64,000 bases of DNA from Burkholderia seminalis DSM 23518. Its GTDB lineage: Bacteria > Pseudomonadota > Gammaproteobacteria > Burkholderiales > Burkholderiaceae. Both the position numbers and the translations under genes were made by a program. The stretch is from positions 1 to 64,000 of the forward strand of contig NZ_CADFDK010000008.1 of assembly GCF_902832885.1 (NCBI RefSeq). The letters are read 5' to 3'. The notes below the pieces were generated by a model. The model ran no database searches. It had not been told where the DNA came from and saw only the letters and a list, made by a program, of their open reading frames with translations. Below, piece by piece: positions 3,754 to 58,542 of this stretch (positions within the stretch are counted from its first letter, which is position 1; each line of letters starts with the position of its first letter).

Positions 3754-3807
3754 CTCACCACTCCCTTGCACAGCGTTTCGACTGTCTTTCCCCGGTTGTT
3801 ATGCACA
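3754..3807 (-). repeat. DnaA-box-ended repeat, copy 1 of 6
   Basis: On the plus strand the copy reads CTCACC, then GCACAGCGTTTCGA, then 15 unconserved bases, ending in TTATGCACA, a full match to the DnaA box pattern TTATNCACA. The spacing between the blocks is the same as in the other copies. Confidence 0.6.
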
Positions 3808-3826
3808 TTGAGGCAACGTCGGCGCC

Positions 3827-3878
3827 CTCACCTTTGAAATCACAGGGTTTCGAGTCGCCGCGGAACAGGATGTCCACA
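3827..3878 (-). repeat. DnaA-box-ended repeat, copy 2 of 6
   Basis: CTCACC, then CACAGGGTTTCGA, 15 bases, then ATGTCCACA. The first spacer is one base shorter than in the other copies. It lies 19 bases after copy 1 in the same orientation. Confidence 0.6.
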
Positions 3879-3914
3879 TCGATCATGGGTAAGCGATCTG
3901 GCTTCCGAGGTGGA

Positions 3915-4526
3915 CTACGATCCTGTTCGTCCTGGTAGAACAGCCGCCGATATCTGGCTACCGGCAAGCATCTTGTTTGCTCGGCGCACAAACACCCAGT
4001 GCCAAACCCAGAGGAAAACCGCAACGCCGCCGGCGATGGCGCCCATGGTATTCGGTATCAACGAAACAACCTGCGCAAGACACCACCCGATGCCGCTGAT
4101 CCGGCCGAACGAGCGCAAACCCGACAGAGCGGGATTGATACGAGACTCCGCTTCCAGCGACTTCGCAACGTTGGAAATAATGAAGAAGTCCTCGATGAAG
4201 TTGTACGGCAAGAGGAACATGAGCCAGACGCTGTTAGGTTCGGCCGCACGCGATCCCTGGTTAACCGATTTCAGGGTAGTCCGGAGGTCGCTCGCGTAGG
4301 CATAGACCAGAGCCAGGAAAACCGTGATGGCGACGATGCCGCCGATTGTCCCAAGCCTATCCATTTCGCCGAGAATGCCTCCGTCTTCCGAGGGACGGAT
4401 AAGCGGATAGGCAAGCCCAAAGGCAATGGGGATGCTCAGAATGGCTTTGAGAACGGTCCGGGCAGTTGCGCTCATGTGTATCGGATCGATAGCTGCGTTG
4501 TCACCGGCAGCATAGCGAACGATCAT
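3915..4526 (-). CDS. hypothetical integral membrane protein
   Basis: The product is 203 residues with four likely membrane segments: TVLKAILSIPIAFGLAYPLI, GIVAITVFLALVYAYA, a loop with PNSVWLMFLLPYNFIEDFFI, and GAIAGGVAVFLWVWHWVFV. I do not recognise a family. An internal ATG at 4475 (MSATARTVL) is an alternative start; the upstream ATG has GCGAGG just before it, so I kept 4526. It sits alone, flanked by copies 2 and 3 of the repeat, in a patch that looks less GC-biased than its surroundings. Acquisition by transfer is possible but unproven. Confidence 0.6.
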   Translation of the reverse strand: MIVRYAAGDNAAIDPIHMSATARTVLKAILSIPIAFGLAYPLIRPSEDGGILGEMDRLGTIGGIVAITVFLALVYAYASDLRTTLKSVNQGSRAAEPNSVWLMFLLPYNFIEDFFIISNVAKSLEAESRINPALSGLRSFGRISGIGWCLAQVVSLIPNTMGAIAGGVAVFLWVWHWVFVRRANKMLAGSQISAAVLPGRTGS

Positions 4527-4665
4527 CCTCGCTAGGCGACTTTGTCCTGGTATATGCCGCCTTCTCTCGCGACGCTAGCCGAGTCGGTGTCTGAACCGCA
4601 CCGGGAATCGTGGAGGCCAGTTGGTTTAATCGTGGTGACGCTGCATGCGGATATCGTTCGGCTCG

Positions 4666-4718
4666 CTCACCTTGGGTCTGCACAGCGTTTCGAGTTGCAT
4701 GGAAGCGCGATATCCACA
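4666..4718 (-). repeat. DnaA-box-ended repeat, copy 3 of 6
   Basis: CTCACC, 8 bases, GCACAGCGTTTCGA, 15 bases, then GATATCCACA, which is one mismatch from the DnaA box TTATCCACA. Confidence 0.65.
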
Positions 4719-4760
4719 ACCCGTGAGGTGGTGCAAACATCCTCGCCGAATTCGCGTACC

Positions 4761-4813
4761 CTCACCCGTTGAATGCACAGGGTTTCGAGTGTCTTGGCTG
4801 CTCGATATCCACA
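4761..4813 (-). repeat. DnaA-box-ended repeat, copy 4 of 6
   Basis: CTCACC, 8 bases, GCACAGGGTTTCGA, 15 bases, GATATCCACA. Its final block is identical to that of copy 3. Confidence 0.65.
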
Positions 4814-4924
4814 CGGAATTCAACCACGGTGGATCGCGCGGAAACTACCGCATCATCGGCCCTGTTCCGGAAAGCCCTGCCAGACAGGGCATTCGGGCCG
4901 ATTCGTGTGGTTGAATGCAAGGCG

Positions 4925-4978
4925 CTCACCCGTTCGATGCACAGCGATTCGACTTGTTGGGTGTGCGAGTTGTCCACA
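4925..4978 (-). repeat. DnaA-box-ended repeat, copy 5 of 6
   Basis: CTCACC, 8 bases, GCACAGCGATTCGA, 15 bases, then TTGTCCACA. The interior 15 bases differ from the other copies while the spacing is unchanged. Confidence 0.6.
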
Positions 4979-5139
4979 TGCGGCTCGCCGGCAAGTGCAC
5001 GAACGTGATGCACCTTCCCCCGGCGTTCGCATCATGGAGCCGGCAGTTCTCCGCTCAGTCGTGCGCTCGCGCATCCGGATCGGCTTGTCACGGTCCGAAT
5101 TCGCCGGGATCCGCTCCCGACTTGCGATCCGGGTACATG

Positions 5140-5193
5140 CTCACCATTTACGCGCACAGCGTTTTGTGTCGTTTTGTGCGGCAGTTATCCACA
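5140..5193 (-). repeat. DnaA-box-ended repeat, copy 6 of 6
   Basis: CTCACC, 8 bases, GCACAGCGTTTTGT, 15 bases, ending in TTATCCACA, a perfect DnaA box. This copy lies just 3' of the frameshifted gene at 5227-5543. Confidence 0.55.
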
Positions 5194-5226
5194 CGCGAAG
5201 GTCGACCAACTTCACGGCATCCGCAG

Positions 5227-5543
5227 TCACTTGGTTCGATAAACCCCGAGAATTTCGCCGGTTTCCGGAGAAACGACATACTGGATCGACGTCCCAAGCG
5301 GACTCGCATTGCCGAGCCCACGCATGCCGGGCGGCATCTTCGCACGAACGTCACGCTGATGACGTGATCCTCGGGCGTTGGATGCGCCCTGGCTTCGCTT
5401 TCGTCTTCGATGCAGATCTCGAAGTTGTGCAGATCCTGCCCGGTCGTCGCGAAGTCGTCATAGGCGGCCTTCAGACCGAGCAGCGTCGCGGTATTGAGCC
5501 GGACGGAACAGCGATCGATCCTGCCGAAATTCAGCTTGCTCAT
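5227..5543 (-). pseudogene. small protein linked to the immunity gene, frameshifted
   Basis: The frame opens at 5543 (MSKLNFGRIDRCSV) and reads well to ISVTFVR. It then loses protein character and runs into the repeat region. Moving one frame at about 5340 restores a clean C-terminus (KMPPGMRGLGNASPLG, then QYVVSPETGEILGVYRTK) ending with TGA at 5229-5227. One extra A in the GAAGA run would join the two parts into about 105 residues. It starts 15 bases after the immunity-like gene, so the two form an operon. I do not recognise the family; a second immunity or accessory protein is a guess. A sequencing error is as likely as a true mutation. Confidence 0.6.
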
Positions 5544-5558
5544 GGTGTTCTCTGGATA

Positions 5559-6503
5559 TCACGGGTTCGGGCTCGTCTGCGACGCTTGCCGTAGCTCGAG
5601 GAAATACTGTGATTCGTCGTGGATGACGCCGTCCGCGTATCGCTTGTCTTCCCACAGCAGTCGCCAGCGTGTCTTGACGGACACTCTCGTGTCGTAATCT
5701 CTGAGGTTCGGCGCGCGTATATCGCGAATGAGGTAATTGAAACAGCCGTTGCCGTGCAGGCTGCGATCGCCGATCGGCACAATACCCAGCAATTTCGATT
5801 GCTCGACAGCAACCGGTTCCCAGATGCCGTCGCAAGGCACCTTCTCGCCCGTCTTGATCACCGTGCCGACTGGTTCCGGAACCTCGGGCAAGTCCTCCGG
5901 AAACACTGGATACGGAAGCGTGTAGAAGGTGTTCTCGTATGCCCTCGGAGACAACAGCAGCCCTACCGAGCGCAGTTGCGCCAGATCGCTGTTCAAACTC
6001 GACGGCTCGAACGGAGCACTCTCCATCTGGTATTCCGATGCGTGCAGCAGTTGGGCCAGCGCGTCAACCTTCGGCGGATAGGGGGCGAACTGCGTACCAC
6101 GCTCCCAGTAGTCGTAATGAGGGAAGAAATGCGCGTTCAAATAGTTAGACCGATCGACTGCGTATTGCAGGGGCTGGCCGCGCTGCCAGACAAACCGGTA
6201 CCCGCGAGCCAGTTCCGGTAATCCTCGATCGTAAGCGGCGAGTACTTCGAAGATGGTTGGCAGATGGTCTGCCGGCACGAGCTCCTGATCGTCTTCAGGC
6301 CAAGTCTTCACCGCGTTCTCGTATTCGTTCGCGAAGATCGCAAACGCATCGCGCTTCCGCTTCCAGAGCGAATAACTAGTCAGACGTTGCAGCAGCCAGA
6401 AAATCCTGCGCCGCGTCGCGTCATCCGCCATGTCGTACTGCTTGATCGTATCCGTCATCTCTGCCAGCTCTTTCATTCGGTTGCATCGCTCCGTTGAAAG
6501 CAT
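5559..6503 (-). CDS. putative Imm71/Imm72-like immunity protein
   Basis: The product is 314 residues, soluble and mostly helical, with no signal peptide. The N-terminal RRRIFWLLQRLTSYSLWKRK and the C-terminal GTVIKTGEKVPCDGIWEPV resemble, from memory, Imm71/Imm72 immunity proteins, which neutralise polymorphic or type VI toxins. No toxin gene lies in the window, so this may be an orphan immunity gene kept against neighbours. In-frame ATGs at 6476 and 6458 are alternative starts; none has a strong ribosome binding site. It heads a two-gene unit with the frameshifted 5227-5543 gene. The family call is moderate; a hypothetical protein is the fallback. Confidence 0.55.
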   Translation of the reverse strand: MLSTERCNRMKELAEMTDTIKQYDMADDATRRRIFWLLQRLTSYSLWKRKRDAFAIFANEYENAVKTWPEDDQELVPADHLPTIFEVLAAYDRGLPELARGYRFVWQRGQPLQYAVDRSNYLNAHFFPHYDYWERGTQFAPYPPKVDALAQLLHASEYQMESAPFEPSSLNSDLAQLRSVGLLLSPRAYENTFYTLPYPVFPEDLPEVPEPVGTVIKTGEKVPCDGIWEPVAVEQSKLLGIVPIGDRSLHGNGCFNYLIRDIRAPNLRDYDTRVSVKTRWRLLWEDKRYADGVIHDESQYFLELRQASQTSPNP

Positions 6504-6522
6504 CGATCAATCACGCACGGCA

Positions 6523-6799
6523 TCAATGCAGTTCGATGACGTACTGCCCCGGCTCGTGCGATGTAATCGAACGACGCCAGCGCCTCAGCGTAGTCAATGA
6601 TTCGATCATCTACCTGTGCCCCTCATCAGCCGGTTCATGCCGTCATGAATCGCTCGCCCTTGTAGCGGCAACACAGGACCTCCGCTTCCGGGATCGACAT
6701 GCGTTGCTCGAACACGATGTCGCCCGGGTGTTGCCGCATCCGATGCACGACTGCGTCGATATCGAGCGTGTCGAGCCCGGTCAACGAGGAATCGGTCAT
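6523..6799 (-). pseudogene. degraded small gene remnant
   Basis: From an ATG at 6799 the minus strand encodes MTDSSLTGLDTLDIDAVVHR onward to RYKGERFMTA and stops at 6635. A different frame shortly after gives LTTLRRWRRSITSHEPGQYV and ends at 6523-6525. The two pieces look like the body and tail of one protein broken by indels. The family is unknown. It lies upstream of the immunity-like gene and may be debris of another immunity gene. Confidence 0.3.
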
Positions 6800-6961
6800 G
6801 TGCCGTGAGCCTGGCCGTCGGGCCTTTGCATTCTGAATGCCCGCGATTCTACAGACATGGGGACTCACGCACTGCTCGGACGTATCACAGCCTTTCGCTT
6901 CGTTCCTCTGCCCGCCGCACGCAGTGCATATCCCGAGCAGATCACAGTCGGCGGACTGTGC

Positions 6962-7222
6962 TTATCCAAAGGTGTTAACAGGGTTCGTATATATACGTAG
7001 TGATAGTTAACAAGTCCTGTGGCCCACGGTGGATAACCTCCGTAACGCACTGAATCTTCGACATGAAGCGAAATGCATAACCCTGGGTGAGCGACGTGAA
7101 CAGCGCCCGGCAGCACAGAACAACTCTTCGTCGATTCGCCGCTTCGCCGACCTATCCTCAATCATTCCACTGTGAATCCAGAGGCTTGCCGGACGGTTAT
7201 CCAGAGGGCAATGTGGATAACA
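6962..7222 (+). repeat. DnaA-box-rich intergenic element, copy A
   Basis: In order the element holds TTATCCAAA (6962), an AT-rich core GTATATATACGTAGT (6987-7001), three bases, AGTTAACAA (7005-7013), the box GGTGGATAA (7029-7037), and an inverted pair GGTTATCCAG and GTGGATAACA (7195-7222, 8-base spacer). A diverged copy in the opposite orientation lies at 54424-54671. No gene is evident here. The rest of 6504-7386 contains only the remnant above and the tRNA promoter. Confidence 0.65.
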
Positions 7223-7386: not shown

Positions 7387-7463
7387 AGGCTCGTAGCTCA
7401 GTTGGTTAGAGCACCACCTTGACATGGTGGGGGTCGTTGGTTCGAATCCAATCGAGCCTACCA
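7387..7463 (+). tRNA. tRNA-Val (GAC anticodon)
   Basis: The 77-base gene folds as a complete cloverleaf: acceptor AGGCTCG with CGAGCCT, a D arm with AGTTGGTTAGA, an anticodon stem CCACC/GGTGG around TTGACAT (anticodon GAC, valine), a T arm around TTCGAAT, and an encoded CCA end. It has its own promoter immediately upstream and a strong terminator about 65 bases downstream, so it is a single-gene unit. Confidence 0.96.
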
Positions 7464-52121: not shown

Positions 52122-52454
52122 CGTGCGCGAACCGTGCCGTCGAGAGTCAGACTCCGACGGCACAGCGCCGAATCCTGGCCCGCGCGACGCGCCCTCCGGC
52201 TTGCCGGCGGCCACCCCGCGGTACGGCGTTGCTATGATAGCGCAGCGCAAACCCAATAACGACAAGGGTTTCAAAGATTTTCATCGGTATTTCGCCGAAT
52301 GAATCGTCGATTGCCCGTTTTTTGACCTGCGCCAACCGGACAGGATACGCAGCGCGGTCCGCCCGTGCGCCGCCCCGTTGCCCTTTTCCAACGGCCGGTC
52401 GGACGGCTCCGCGCAATCCCTTGCCAGGCTTGGCTGCCACGTTTTTTGTTTCGC

Positions 52455-54380
52455 ATGCCCGACCGACTTGTACCCGCCACGCTCGCGCCTCGCGACGACG
52501 GCACGCTCGTCTCGCCCGAGTTCGGCGAGCTCCATCGCAGTGCGTCAGGCGCGCTCGCGCATCACGCGTTCATCGCGGAAAACGGGCTGCCGGCACGCTG
52601 GCGACAGCGTCGCACCTTCACGATCGTCGCGACGGAATTCGGCACGGGCGCCGGCTTCCTCGCGACCTGGGTCGCGTGGCGCGACGATCCGTCGCGCTGC
52701 GAGCGGCTCCATTTCGTCGCGGTCGAACCGCATCCGTTTTCGCGCGAAGACCTGCGTCGCGCGGTTTCCCATATCGTTGCGAACACAACCATATCCGCGG
52801 ATGCCGATGCATTGATCGACGCATGGCCGATGCTCGTGCCCGGCCTGCACCGGCTCGAATTCGACGAAGGGCGCGTGGTGCTCACGCTCGCCTTCGGCGA
52901 TACGGCCGACATGCTGAAGAAGCTGGTCGTGCGGGCCGACGCGTTCTATCTCGACGGCGCCGCATCATCGACCGACGTGATCCGCGCGCTCGCGAAGATG
53001 GCCGGCGACGCCGCGACGTTTGCAACGCGTGCACGTTCCGACGAGATGAAGCACGCACTCGGCGAAACAGGTTTCATCTTTCGCGAAGTCGACGATCGGC
53101 TCGTCGGCGATTATGCGCCGCGCTGGCGCTCGCGCCGGCACGAACCGCCGCGCGCGCTGACGGTTGCCACGCGTCGCGCGCTGGTGATCGGCGCGGGCCT
53201 GGCCGGTTGCGCGGTCGTCGAACGCCTGGCCGCGCGCGGCTGGGACGTCACGCTGATCGAGCGGCACGAACGGATCGCGAGCGAAGCATCGGGCAATCCG
53301 GCCGGCGTATTCCATCCGCTGATGACGCGCGACGACAACGTCGCGAGCCGCCTCACGCGCAGCGGCTTCCTGCACGCGATCGCACGCTGGCGCGCACTCG
53401 AACGCGCGGGTCATGCGTTCGCGCGCAGCACGCACGGCATGATTCATCTCGCCGAATCGGCCCACGACTTCGCGCGGATGCGCGACGCATTCGACGCGTT
53501 CGGCGCGCCGTCCGACTATGTGACGCTGCTCGATGCCGACGCCGCGCGTGCGCATCTGAACCTGCCGGTCGCACATGGCGGCCTGCTGTTTCCGCACGGC
53601 GGCGCCGTCTGGCCGGCCGCGCTGTGCGCGGCGCAGTACGCGGCGGCCGGCGAGCGCGTACGCCTGCTTGCCTCCACCGGCGTCGCGCGGCTCGAGCGGC
53701 ACGGCGATGCATGGCACGCGCTCGACGATACGGGTGCGACGCTCGCCGAAGCGCCCGTCGTCGTGCTCGCGAACGCGGGCGACGCCGCGCGTCTTGCCGG
53801 GCTGCAGCATGTCGCGCTGCAGCCGGTACGCGGCCAGCTCACGCTGCTGCCGCCGGGCACCGCGGCGCCGCTGCCGTGCCCGACGATCGGCGACGGATAT
53901 GCGGTGCCGCTCGACGACGGCACGCTGCTGATCGGCGCCACGTTCGAGCCCGACGACGTCGATCCGGCGATGCGCGCGGCCGGCCACGTTGAAAACCTCG
54001 ATCGTGTGCGGCACCTGCTGCCCGGCCTGATCGGCGAGCTGCCGGATCCCGCCACGCTGCGCGGCCGCGTCGCATTCCGCTGGGTCGTCGGGGACCGCCT
54101 GCCGCTCTTCGGCCCGCTGGCCGACGAAACGCGAGCGCTCGCGAACGCCCGCGCGCTGGGCGGTGCGCAGGCACGCGATTTGCCGCGTACGCCCGGCCTC
54201 TACGGCGCATTCGGCTTCGGCTCGCGCGGCCTCGTGTGGGCCGCGCTCGGTGCCGAACTGATCGCATCGCAACTCGAAGGCGAACCCTGGCCGCTCGAGC
54301 GCGAACTCGCCGACGCCGTCGACCCCGCACGCTTCCTGATCCGCGCACTGCGCGCACGCCGCGTCGGCTCCGCCGGCTGA
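52455..54380 (+). CDS. mnmC: bifunctional tRNA mnm5s2U34 synthesis protein MnmC
   Basis: The product is 641 residues. The N-terminal methyltransferase domain (residues 1-240) has FTIVATEFGTGAGFLATWVA and DAFYLDGAAS. The C-terminal FAD oxidoreductase has RALVIGAGLAGCAVVERLAA, NPAGVFHPLMTRDDN and GAFGFGSRGLVWAALGAELI. The enzyme converts cmnm5s2U to mnm5s2U in the wobble position of some tRNAs. The SAM motif EFGTGAGF is slightly diverged from the usual FGTGLNF but looks functional. ATG at 52455 chosen by similarity; upstream signal is weak. Confidence 0.93.
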   Translation: MPDRLVPATLAPRDDGTLVSPEFGELHRSASGALAHHAFIAENGLPARWRQRRTFTIVATEFGTGAGFLATWVAWRDDPSRCERLHFVAVEPHPFSREDLRRAVSHIVANTTISADADALIDAWPMLVPGLHRLEFDEGRVVLTLAFGDTADMLKKLVVRADAFYLDGAASSTDVIRALAKMAGDAATFATRARSDEMKHALGETGFIFREVDDRLVGDYAPRWRSRRHEPPRALTVATRRALVIGAGLAGCAVVERLAARGWDVTLIERHERIASEASGNPAGVFHPLMTRDDNVASRLTRSGFLHAIARWRALERAGHAFARSTHGMIHLAESAHDFARMRDAFDAFGAPSDYVTLLDADAARAHLNLPVAHGGLLFPHGGAVWPAALCAAQYAAAGERVRLLASTGVARLERHGDAWHALDDTGATLAEAPVVVLANAGDAARLAGLQHVALQPVRGQLTLLPPGTAAPLPCPTIGDGYAVPLDDGTLLIGATFEPDDVDPAMRAAGHVENLDRVRHLLPGLIGELPDPATLRGRVAFRWVVGDRLPLFGPLADETRALANARALGGAQARDLPRTPGLYGAFGFGSRGLVWAALGAELIASQLEGEPWPLERELADAVDPARFLIRALRARRVGSAG

Positions 54381-54423: not shown

Positions 54424-54671
54424 GGTTATCCACGCCACGCTGTGGATAACCGCGCGGAATCCGCACGCACTTCGTGTGTAATCACAGTGGACGTAAACTG
54501 GGCAACTCCGCACAGCTGTGCAACGGCCCGAAAGTTGCTCAACTCAAACGACTGTGCACGAACAGCCTGTGCAACCGGTTATGGTTTCGCCAACGCCTTG
54601 ATCCGTCAGCGTAAACCGAAGTTATCCACAGAACTGTGCGTCCTTTGTTAACTTCTACTACGTATATATAC
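54424..54671 (-). repeat. DnaA-box-rich intergenic element, copy B (inverted relative to copy A)
   Basis: On the minus strand, in order: GTATATATACGTAGT (54671-54657), three bases, AGTTAACAA (54653-54645), perfect box TGTGGATAA (54630-54622), and an inverted pair GGTTATCCAC/GTGGATAACC (54451-54424, 8-base spacer). The order and most spacings match copy A at 6962-7222. It lies just after mnmC. No gene is evident. Confidence 0.65.
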
Positions 54672-57396
<2,725 letters not shown>

Positions 57397-57903
57397 AAAA
57401 ATGTTTTGCAGATTGCAGGCTCGACCGCGTCGCGATTCGCTGAATGACGGTTGGCGCCATGTCCGGCCGAAATCGGTGCCGGTCGTCCTGAAAATCTGTG
57501 GATAACCTAATATTCCGCTGCAAAGTCAATGATCTGTGCGCGGGATAACCCGGTGGATCAATGCCATTCGACCGATGGCCGATCCGAACAGGAAAATGCT
57601 GGCGCGCCCCGTTGCGCGGGCGCGCGGCATTGCGGGCACAACGAAAAATTTCAGTTATCCAGTGATTTTCCACAGAATGCAGGGGATAACTTAGCTGTGC
57701 GATTTTCCGCTCTCGCTTAGAATGTCGGCTTTGCGGACACCGGAACGGCGTGTGTCATTCCGGTCGCCGCGAACGCGACCGCCGCGTGTGCCTCGTGACG
57801 GCCGTGATGACGCACTCGAGAGAGCGCGTTTGTTTTGAGATAGACATTCGATCTCCACACTACGGCCGCTCGGCAATCCGGGCGGCGGCAAAGCGAAAAG
57901 ACT
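57397..57903. other. intergenic region with scattered DnaA-like boxes
   Basis: A perfect TGTGGATAA lies at 57497-57505. Near-matches (GTTATCCAG, TTTTCCACA, GGGGATAAC) fall between 57650 and 57690. It lacks the GTATATATAC core of copies A and B. A TAGAAT at 57718-57723 could be the -10 box for the MarR gene. No gene seen. Confidence 0.45.
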
Positions 57904-58542
57904 ATGAGCGAAGGCGTTTACGGGAACCAGGCTTCGGGACGTGTGACCCACAGCCTGCTGCGGTTGAGCACGGCCATGCGGAGCCAGGCATGGGATTGGG
58001 CGGAAGGCGCTGGCCTCACGCCGACGCAGGGCGAGATTCTCGTGCTGCTGCTGCAGCGCAAGGGCCCGATGCGGCTCGGCGAGATCGCGCGCGAGACGCA
58101 GCTCACCGCGGCGACCACGAGCGATGCGGTCAGCACGCTCGAGACGAAGGGGCTCGTCGAGAAGCGCCGTGCGCTGGACGACGGCCGTGCACCGGCCGTG
58201 CGCCTGTCGGCGCGTGGCCGTACGGCCGCGAAGAAGGCGCTGCAATGGCCTGAATTTCTGACGAAAGCGGTCGGCAAGCTCGGCGCGGACGAGCAGGGCA
58301 CGCTGTACCGCGCGCTGCTGAAGACGCTGCGCGAGCTGCAGGTGGCCGGTGCGACGCCGCCGCAGCGCATGTGCCTGACGTGCGCGCATTTCCAGCCGGG
58401 CAAGCTGTCGAAGAAGACCGTGCATCACTGCGCGGCGCTCGACATCTCGATGTCGGACAGCGATCTGCGTCTCGACTGCTCGGTGCAGGAAGAAGCCGAC
58501 GCGGCGACGCAGAAGAAGACCTGGAAGATTTTCGCAGGCTGA
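57904..58542 (+). CDS. MarR-family regulator with C-terminal Cys/His cluster
   Basis: The product is 212 residues. The winged helix (GLTPTQGEILVLLLQRKGPM, QLTAATTSDAVSTLETKGLV) is followed by a tail unusual for MarR proteins: CLTCAHFQPG, HHCAALDISM, then a last Cys in RLDCSVQ, giving four Cys and several His as a probable metal or Fe-S site. The regulator may sense metal or redox state. The 510-base upstream region is long. The amidotransferase gene follows 25 bases later, so they may form an operon. Confidence 0.85.
   Translation: MSEGVYGNQASGRVTHSLLRLSTAMRSQAWDWAEGAGLTPTQGEILVLLLQRKGPMRLGEIARETQLTAATTSDAVSTLETKGLVEKRRALDDGRAPAVRLSARGRTAAKKALQWPEFLTKAVGKLGADEQGTLYRALLKTLRELQVAGATPPQRMCLTCAHFQPGKLSKKTVHHCAALDISMSDSDLRLDCSVQEEADAATQKKTWKIFAG

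Follow-up and report, generated by a model that had tools for sequence, protein, structure and literature searches.

A repeated DnaA-box and AT-core module on chromosome 1 of Burkholderia seminalis: a very probable oriC1 and an outlying copy

In Burkholderia seminalis DSM 23518, an origin-like intergenic element is found twice, 47 kb apart, within a stretch of 64,000 nucleotides that is here called the window, and the question is which of the copies, if either, marks the start of replication and what the other may do. A first-pass annotation had described the copy next to a tRNA-Val gene (6962..7222) as origin-like or DnaA-reactivating, and had noted that neither copy is near dnaA or parAB. 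An origin-like module that is present twice near a replication start is a good test of how strictly a single start site is kept, and multiple origins in bacteria are treated as an open question, with no evidence seen, in the available part of a 2015 opinion paper (PMC4403523). For chromosome 1 of Burkholderia cenocepacia, the available text of Du et al. (2016) gives an Ori-finder call first and names a cluster near nucleotide 1 only as a possibility, leaving the exact origin open (PMC4948915); the present analysis supplies base-pair origin candidates and a module of fixed geometry for this chromosome. A search of the open literature, with subscription papers and supplementary files outside its scope, returned no paper describing the repeated modules reported here.

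Parts and geometry of the module

The core of the element was searched with the pattern GTATATATACGTAGTnnnAGTTAACAA, which has 24 fixed letters and three free positions, allowing up to 3 mismatches. It matches the window with 0 mismatches at 6987-7013 (+), copy A, and at 54645-54671 (-), copy B, while 100 dinucleotide shuffles of the window gave 0 core matches. Dozens of unrelated copies would have weakened the first reading of the element; A and B are the sole core matches genome-wide (7,974,784 bases searched), and their pairwise alignment places the parts in identical order, which confirms the duplication. In both copies an AT-rich GTATATATAC is followed by TAG-like triplets, by GTTAACAA, by 14 nt and then by a DnaA box in TGTGGATAA orientation, and an inverted pair of DnaA boxes lies about 160-170 bp past this proximal box, with 6 bp between its boxes. 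The proximal box and the inverted pair had been correctly recognized at A; the gap to the core, given as 15 bases, is 14 nt, and the spacer of the pair, given as 8 bases, is 6 (7197-7205 / 7212-7220; B likewise).

Copy A has a far-side DnaA box, TTATCCAAA, with 1 mismatch (6962..6970, +; box search), followed by GTTAAC, a GTWWAC methylation-type motif (6974..6979, +; motif search). Its core (6987..7013, +) is formed by the AT-rich segment, the trio-like TAG TGA TAG (6998-7006) and GTTAACAA, and the proximal, R1-like box TTATCCACC follows after 14 nt (7028..7036, -). The distal inverted pair is made of TTATCCAGA (7197..7205, +) and TTATCCACA (7212..7220, -), and the neighbour beyond it is tRNA-Val(GAC) (7387..7463, +). 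On the opposite side, A adjoins a gene for an immunity-type protein with Imm72 and Imm71 matches (5559-6503, -), which suggests a variable island on that side. Beyond the A core as seen from B, at a distance of 1.8-2.3 kb, repeat and box searches also found an array of four degenerate ~40-bp repeats with a GCACAG start and a DnaA-box-like end (4680..5193, +), three of which have the 7-mer TGCACAG at their start. The relatives G026, G008 and G035 have 2, 3 and 5 such repeats, respectively, at 1.4-3.6 kb from A, the own genome has four, and 0 were found near A in G063.

Copy B lies between mnmC (52365..54380, +; NF002480, 720.7 bits), its conserved left neighbour, also by synteny in other genera, and a sodium/hydrogen exchanger family gene (54911..56266, +; PF00999, E 2.2e-28). 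Its distal inverted pair, with the outer box TTATCCACG (54426..54434, +) and the inner box TTATCCACA (54441..54449, -), is at the same place in 20/20 B regions. The proximal, R1-like box is again TTATCCACA (54622..54630, +), and the core (54645..54671, -), which carries GTATATATAC, the trios TAG TAG AAG (54652-54660) and GTTAACAA, marks the window's peak of AT content over 60 bp. A third site, C, is located at 57497-57674, 2.9 kb from B and facing it, between the gene of a YbdK-family carboxylate-amine ligase (56278..57396, +; NF010040, 633.9 bits), which follows the exchanger gene between B and C, and that of a MarR-family regulator (57904..58542, +; PF12802 / PF01047), the conserved right neighbour of C by synteny. 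Site C has a proximal DnaA box (57497..57505, -), before which the core present in other lineages is gone here, and a distal DnaA box TTTTCCACA (57666..57674, +), the two being spaced by 169 bp as they are in A and C modules that are intact.

DnaA boxes, searched as TTATCCACA with up to 1 mismatch, number 17 in the window against 2.27 expected, and no shuffle reached 17. Five of them are in B and C and nine at 3799-7220. The B-C region thus combines two features of an oriC, a DnaA-box cluster above chance and an AT-rich unwinding element next to the boxes, and A with its array at 4680-5193 is a DnaA-box cluster outside this region, as datA and DARS sites are. A further pair of DnaA boxes about 0.73 kb apart was seen 45 kb right of B (contig C8, ~100.04-100.80 kb), and the same pair is conserved in G026 (639467, 640204) and G063 (2365970, 2366704).

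Both CACAG and GTWWAC carry methylation in B. cenocepacia and occur in origins (PMC7364216, as far as its text was available). Four GTWWAC motifs, at 54493, 54611, 54647 and 54674, cluster at B (54493..54679), and stretches with at least three within 250 bp are found only at B in the own genome (164 kb), G026 and G063 (400 kb each), and only at B and C in G021 (400 kb), while A has a close GTWWAC pair in all four stretches. In 50 runs of a first-order Markov control of the window, no GTWWAC cluster exceeded two. The densest CACAG stretch of the window is at B and the second at A.

Spread and descent of A, B and C

The module is widespread among relatives. At least one core with up to 3 mismatches is present in 65/65 Burkholderia genomes, of which 56 have two, 3 have three and 6 have one; among the 56, the two cores are convergent on one contig and 40.9-67.2 kb apart in 42, form instead a 2.85-kb pair in 2, and are on different contigs in 12 (the counts 42, 12, 2, 3 and 6 were tallied by eye from the match table). 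Family-wide, 170/299 genomes and 9/24 genera have core matches, with Burkholderia, Paraburkholderia, Caballeronia, Trinickia, Mycetohabitans, Robbsia and Pandoraea as named carriers among the matches listed. A contig labelled as an Acidobacteriaceae metagenome-assembled genome carries a Paraburkholderia-type module and is perhaps mis-binned. In the wider group the element seen twice in the window is one of up to four modules: genomes of another genus, g19, have up to four, namely B, C and two outlying A-type modules, 59-286 kb away where the contig is shared; G021 has four by profile, one of them degenerate, between gyrB and B. Each of five genomes of genus g10, probably Pandoraea, has a single core.

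The geometry is nearly invariant. Among 187 core matches in relatives' loci, 180 of them distinct and all required to contain TTAACAA, the proximal box TGTGGATAA (up to 1 mismatch) is exactly 14 nt after the core in 175/180, and the distal boxes are mostly at +183/+198 (A, C) or +195/+210 (B). The constancy of GTTAAC in the core is partly a selection effect, as TTAACAA was required both in this set and in the set used for triplets and tree. The three free core positions are not random and read as triplets TAG, TNN, NAG; the middle A of the second triplet is kept in 204/234 distinct modules, and the 30 exceptions are all of class A and read TGA. This retention of the middle A fits DnaA-trios, whose central adenine is conserved (PMC8287927, in the part available). 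The A copy of the window is one of the weakened ones: it reads TGA in the second triplet and carries one mismatch in the proximal box, both of which are intact in B. TAG TAG TAG is kept in some other Burkholderia A copies. The module recurs across nine genera with its spacing fixed.

B and C keep their surroundings. In the named loci of several genera (80 of at least 119 core loci, the set in which synteny was compared), B adjoins mnmC and C adjoins marR; the ybdK stretch was queried in this comparison via an antisense open frame, the gene itself being identified by NF010040. Other genera often have both B and C complete, 3.0-3.3 kb apart and at the same gene positions, as judged from the family matches listed and from the named-locus and g19-g10 comparisons, and three Pandoraea loci have a core at the C position. 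In Robbsia andropogonis, two tandem module cores are found at the B position, 496 bp apart (888 and 1384 of the locus). In Burkholderia, B is complete in 20/20 fetched B-C regions, while C has its proximal box in 20/20, its distal box in 19/20 and an intact core in 4/20, with a proximal-distal distance of 168-169 bp, as in intact modules. Where the C core is gone, the bins at its place are 0.52-0.76 identical against 1.00 for the proximal box (17 loci).

Copy A is less fixed in place. tRNA-Val adjoins it in 16/20 fetched Burkholderia A regions, while A-type modules elsewhere are next to gyrB or an amino-acid permease (g19), a glmS-like gene (g9) or others, where gyrB was named by similarity and the permease and glmS-like genes from their sequence starts; a single conserved locus for A across genera was accordingly rejected. 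Loss of A in the one-core genomes was also rejected, because a profile search found an A-type module in 3/3 examined (G014, G015, G052), its proximal box being perfect in each and its trios TAG TAG TAG in two; of the other three of these six genomes, G050 was read over 10 kb, and G025 and G028 were left out.

In its sequence, A is evidently under constraint. Across 17 A loci, identity in its 10-bp bins is 0.80-0.99 where they cover the core, the proximal box or the distal pair and 0.93-0.95 at the far-side box (6962..6970), but only 0.35-0.65 between -130 and -80 and between +270 and +330. For the AT core with GTTAACAA, conservation is 0.86-0.95 in A and 0.88-0.97 in B, whose flanks are more generally conserved than those of A. 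In a midpoint-rooted tree of 234 modules, 88/88 B modules form one clade (support 0.894), and 91/96 A and 24/31 C modules group together apart from it (support 0.859), with 4 A modules and 1 C module on the B side. Module classes and tree were drawn from the same stretch and are not independent; 20-kb loci and matches near a locus end were omitted, and 19/234 modules were unclassed by distal box. Given this grouping of A with C, apart from the B clade, A probably arose long ago by duplication of a C-type module.

Position of the replication start

Within the window, neither copy is indeed near dnaA or parAB, but the same contig carries mnmG, a parA-like gene (its best NCBIfam match is below the cut-off) and parB at 81.3-85.7 kb, which is 27-31 kb from B. 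dnaA is on another contig of the B. seminalis assembly. In 9/11 relatives searched, dnaA is 27-52 kb away from A, with A between it and B, and both copies lie between dnaA and mnmG, so that the puzzle about dnaA and parAB mostly disappears. The exceptions are G036, where A lies on the opposite arm, and G058, where dnaA is found past mnmG, 634 kb from A in the opposite direction.

Strand asymmetry points to the B-C region. In segments of 120-400 kb, the cumulative GC-skew minimum falls beside C in 6/9 genomes, its distance from the B core being 2584-2673 bp in 5/5 genomes (own, G026, G063, G008, G035) and 2524 bp in G021; the own-genome minimum, at ~57318, coincides with the 3' end of the ybdK gene. 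The B-C region therefore has a strand-asymmetry switch in the own genome and five others, and copy A has none in these six. Skew is negative on both sides of A in 5/5 genomes, only 7 kb left of A being covered in the own genome, and beside the right-arm A of G021 it is +0.0248 and +0.0253, with the sign kept across A.

In the remaining three genomes, the raw minima are left of B by 31.9 kb (G014), 34.4 kb (G015) and 38.6 kb (G052), where A is 34.7, 31.6 and 49.1 kb left of B, so that in G014 and G015 the minimum is less than 2.9 kb away from A, and that of G052 falls in the A-B interval. A third-position skew fit with segment and strand terms was made for nine genomes, the G021 interval starting at the degenerate left module, and gave a strong coding-strand bias, of -0.076 in G014, -0.061 in G015 and -0.036 in G052. 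Among the shared A-B genes, 15 on the minus strand shift up and only 4 on the plus strand shift down in third-position skew in these three genomes, which makes coding-strand bias the likelier cause of the raw minima, and a move of the origin to A in these genomes was rejected. Right of C the bias pattern holds in G014, weakly in G015 and not in the plus-strand genes of G052. Paired gene tests of the A-B interval against the window gave p 0.10 for G015, 0.19 for G014 and 0.17 for G052; they showed A-B slightly more negative in G026 (p 0.034) and G035 (p 0.028), and the right arm lower in G014 (p 0.004). The minima of G014, G015 and G052 call for caution in origin calling by skew alone.

After correction for the bias, A-B skew is -0.042 to +0.007, negative in 8/9 genomes with a 95% interval that includes zero in 8/9, and it is below that of the right arm (+0.036 to +0.067) in 9/9 point estimates; between these two segments, the 95% intervals are separate in 6/9 genomes and overlap in 3. 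KOPS-type octamers (GGGNAGGG) disagree with the skew-based origin, as the A-B interval of five genomes has 16 forward and 1 reverse, which point away from A as if the interval were right of an origin. Left of A they are mixed in the five genomes (3/6, 6/5, 2/2, 4/1, 0/0), and for this reason KOPS were not relied on as a pointer.

Published placements differ. A Caballeronia Tn-seq paper has the origin locus at rpmH-dnaA-gyrB (PMC10809759), which is against a placement at B-C, and in a 2026 paper DnaA of B. pseudomallei bound an amplicon that lies near the skew switch and carries DnaA boxes as an opposed pair (PMC12914326), each as given in the part of the text available. Weighing these data, B-C is very probably oriC1 of chromosome 1. 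As the skew minima lie beside C in 6/9 genomes and the corrected A-B skew is below that of the right arm, we conclude that A would not be a habitual origin. The description of the element as origin-like thus holds up, strongly so for B, which has the skew switch of the own genome within 2.7 kb and a complete module of boxes, trios and AT core.

Roles of A and comparison with known systems

From parts, spacing, conservation, synteny and skew, all read directly in the sequence, we infer DnaA binding, unwinding and a role for A. At B, DnaA bound to the proximal box and the distal inverted pair would extend as a filament onto the single-stranded TAG trios, and the AT core would open. C would be a second module facing B, which has kept its DnaA boxes and lost its unwinding core in the B. 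seminalis lineage. A would present DnaA with a B-like, weakened geometry, at a place that has an extra box array alongside and no strand-asymmetry switch in the own genome; it most likely loads or titrates DnaA soon after initiation and may have at most a dormant ability to open. Titration would suit A because a conserved reservoir of boxes doubles soon after initiation. The whole reading, with B-C as oriC1 and A as an accessory DnaA-loading or titrating module, perhaps a dormant origin, seems to us evenly balanced between right and wrong. Counted against it were the minima of G014, G015 and G052, the overlap of A-B with the right arm in 3/9 genomes, the KOPS, the published placements and the 21-nt distance between box and trio described below. 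Both this reading and the datA-like one were marked down, because intervals are apart in only 6/9 genomes, one paper places the origin at dnaA and the rival readings overlap.

It is unlikely that A is a second working or backup origin, which fires in some cells or takes over from a failing B-C, with the main start at B-C. The presence at A of B's parts with little change in spacing, the A-type module in each of the three one-core genomes examined and the 16 to 1 polarity of KOPS speak for such an origin, as does an A-B skew that is weaker than that of the left arm in 8/9 fits, three of these left arms resting on 2-8 genes. The skew sign kept across A in five genomes and across the right-arm A of G021 argues against it, as do the TGA second trio and mismatched proximal box of the window's copy and the strand of the genes, since 24/30 scored A-B genes are on the minus strand, head-on to forks going from A towards B.

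The E. coli sites datA, DARS1 and DARS2 are DnaA-box clusters outside oriC, with a tRNA gene near datA, and datA and DARS sites are not known to have an unwinding core. A site of this kind at A, which inactivates, reactivates or only titrates DnaA and has no unwinding role, its core serving a DNA-bending protein or methylation, is a doubtful explanation. It would account for the 9/17 window boxes at 3799-7220, the array at 4680-5193 included; E. coli, too, has its DnaA boxes concentrated around oriC, in keeping with titration (PMC12371093), and tRNA transcription touches datA too (PMC10950094), both as stated in the available portions. Against it, the AT core with GTTAACAA is conserved in A as in B, beyond the need of a pure box cluster. 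The DnaA-reactivating locus proposed in the first-pass annotation keeps some plausibility for A in this form, but the unwinding core of A is unlike datA and DARS. As a whole, the observation made there is confirmed and its interpretation was partly right.

Rather speculatively, chromosome 1 of Burkholderia and its sister genera might be a natural multi-origin chromosome, with two to four modules over some 50-350 kb, a default pair, outliers that are able to fire and a usage that shifts by lineage; we think this improbable. If the outlying modules are active, chromosome 1 would be a naturally occurring example of a bacterial chromosome with more than one origin, and if they only titrate DnaA, they would amount to a datA-like system assembled from the parts of an origin. 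That A is the principal origin and B-C accessory is very improbable: the raw minima near or towards A in G014, G015 and G052 and the KOPS polarity would agree with it, while the minimum beside C in 6/9 genomes, the step of the third-position fit at B-C in 9/9 point estimates and the variable place and orientation of A between lineages, where B and C keep their neighbours, argue against it. A checkpoint on chromosome 1 for the timing of the secondary chromosomes, comparable to crtS in Vibrio, is hardly credible for A, even with A 41-67 kb from B in 42/65 genomes of a multi-chromosome genus and a single core in each of the five g10 genomes, since the taxonomic contrast is a single one, A shows no link to a Rep protein, and the two core matches genome-wide leave no core common to secondary origins.

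Among the closest known arrangements to copy B is the BUS or DnaA-trio module, which is found in incC of Bacillus subtilis and predicted broadly in bacteria (PMC8287927, PMC6669920), and for which the available text gives a box-to-trio distance of up to 16 bp, with a peak at 10-13 (PMC8287927). B resembles it in having AT-rich DNA, three NAN trios reading 3'-GAT-5' and then a DnaA box. A run of at least three NAN trios, as in BUS, is present in B (TAG TAG AAG) and absent from A (TAG TGA TAG), whose second triplet has no middle A. The modules differ from BUS in the GTTAAC of the spacer, in their number, several per chromosome, and in the distance, since a box 14 nt after AGTTAACAA is 21 nt from the nearest trio in 175/180 copies, beyond the 16 bp of the published rule. 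By that rule the module would not be a standard BUS, although layout and orientation agree.

B and C together are like the bipartite oriC of Helicobacter pylori and B. subtilis, as far as described in the part of PMC8235120 available, with two DnaA-box clusters around genes, one of which, here C, possibly has no unwinding element; they differ in that the genes between them are not dnaA, that both have cores in other lineages and that a further module lies tens of kb away. The available part of Gao (2015) describes putative double origins, for example in Ralstonia pickettii 12D, from box density and Z-curves in single genomes (PMC4403523), and these share with the present case more than one oriC-like locus per chromosome, unlike it in that the module described here has fixed spacing in nine genera. 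Neither the module structure nor a copy 47 kb away is described in the available text of Du et al. (2016) (PMC4948915). As in E. coli datA and DARS, DnaA boxes cluster at copy A outside the probable oriC, and a tRNA gene is close by, as it is at datA; the AT core with trio-like repeats sets A apart from these sites.
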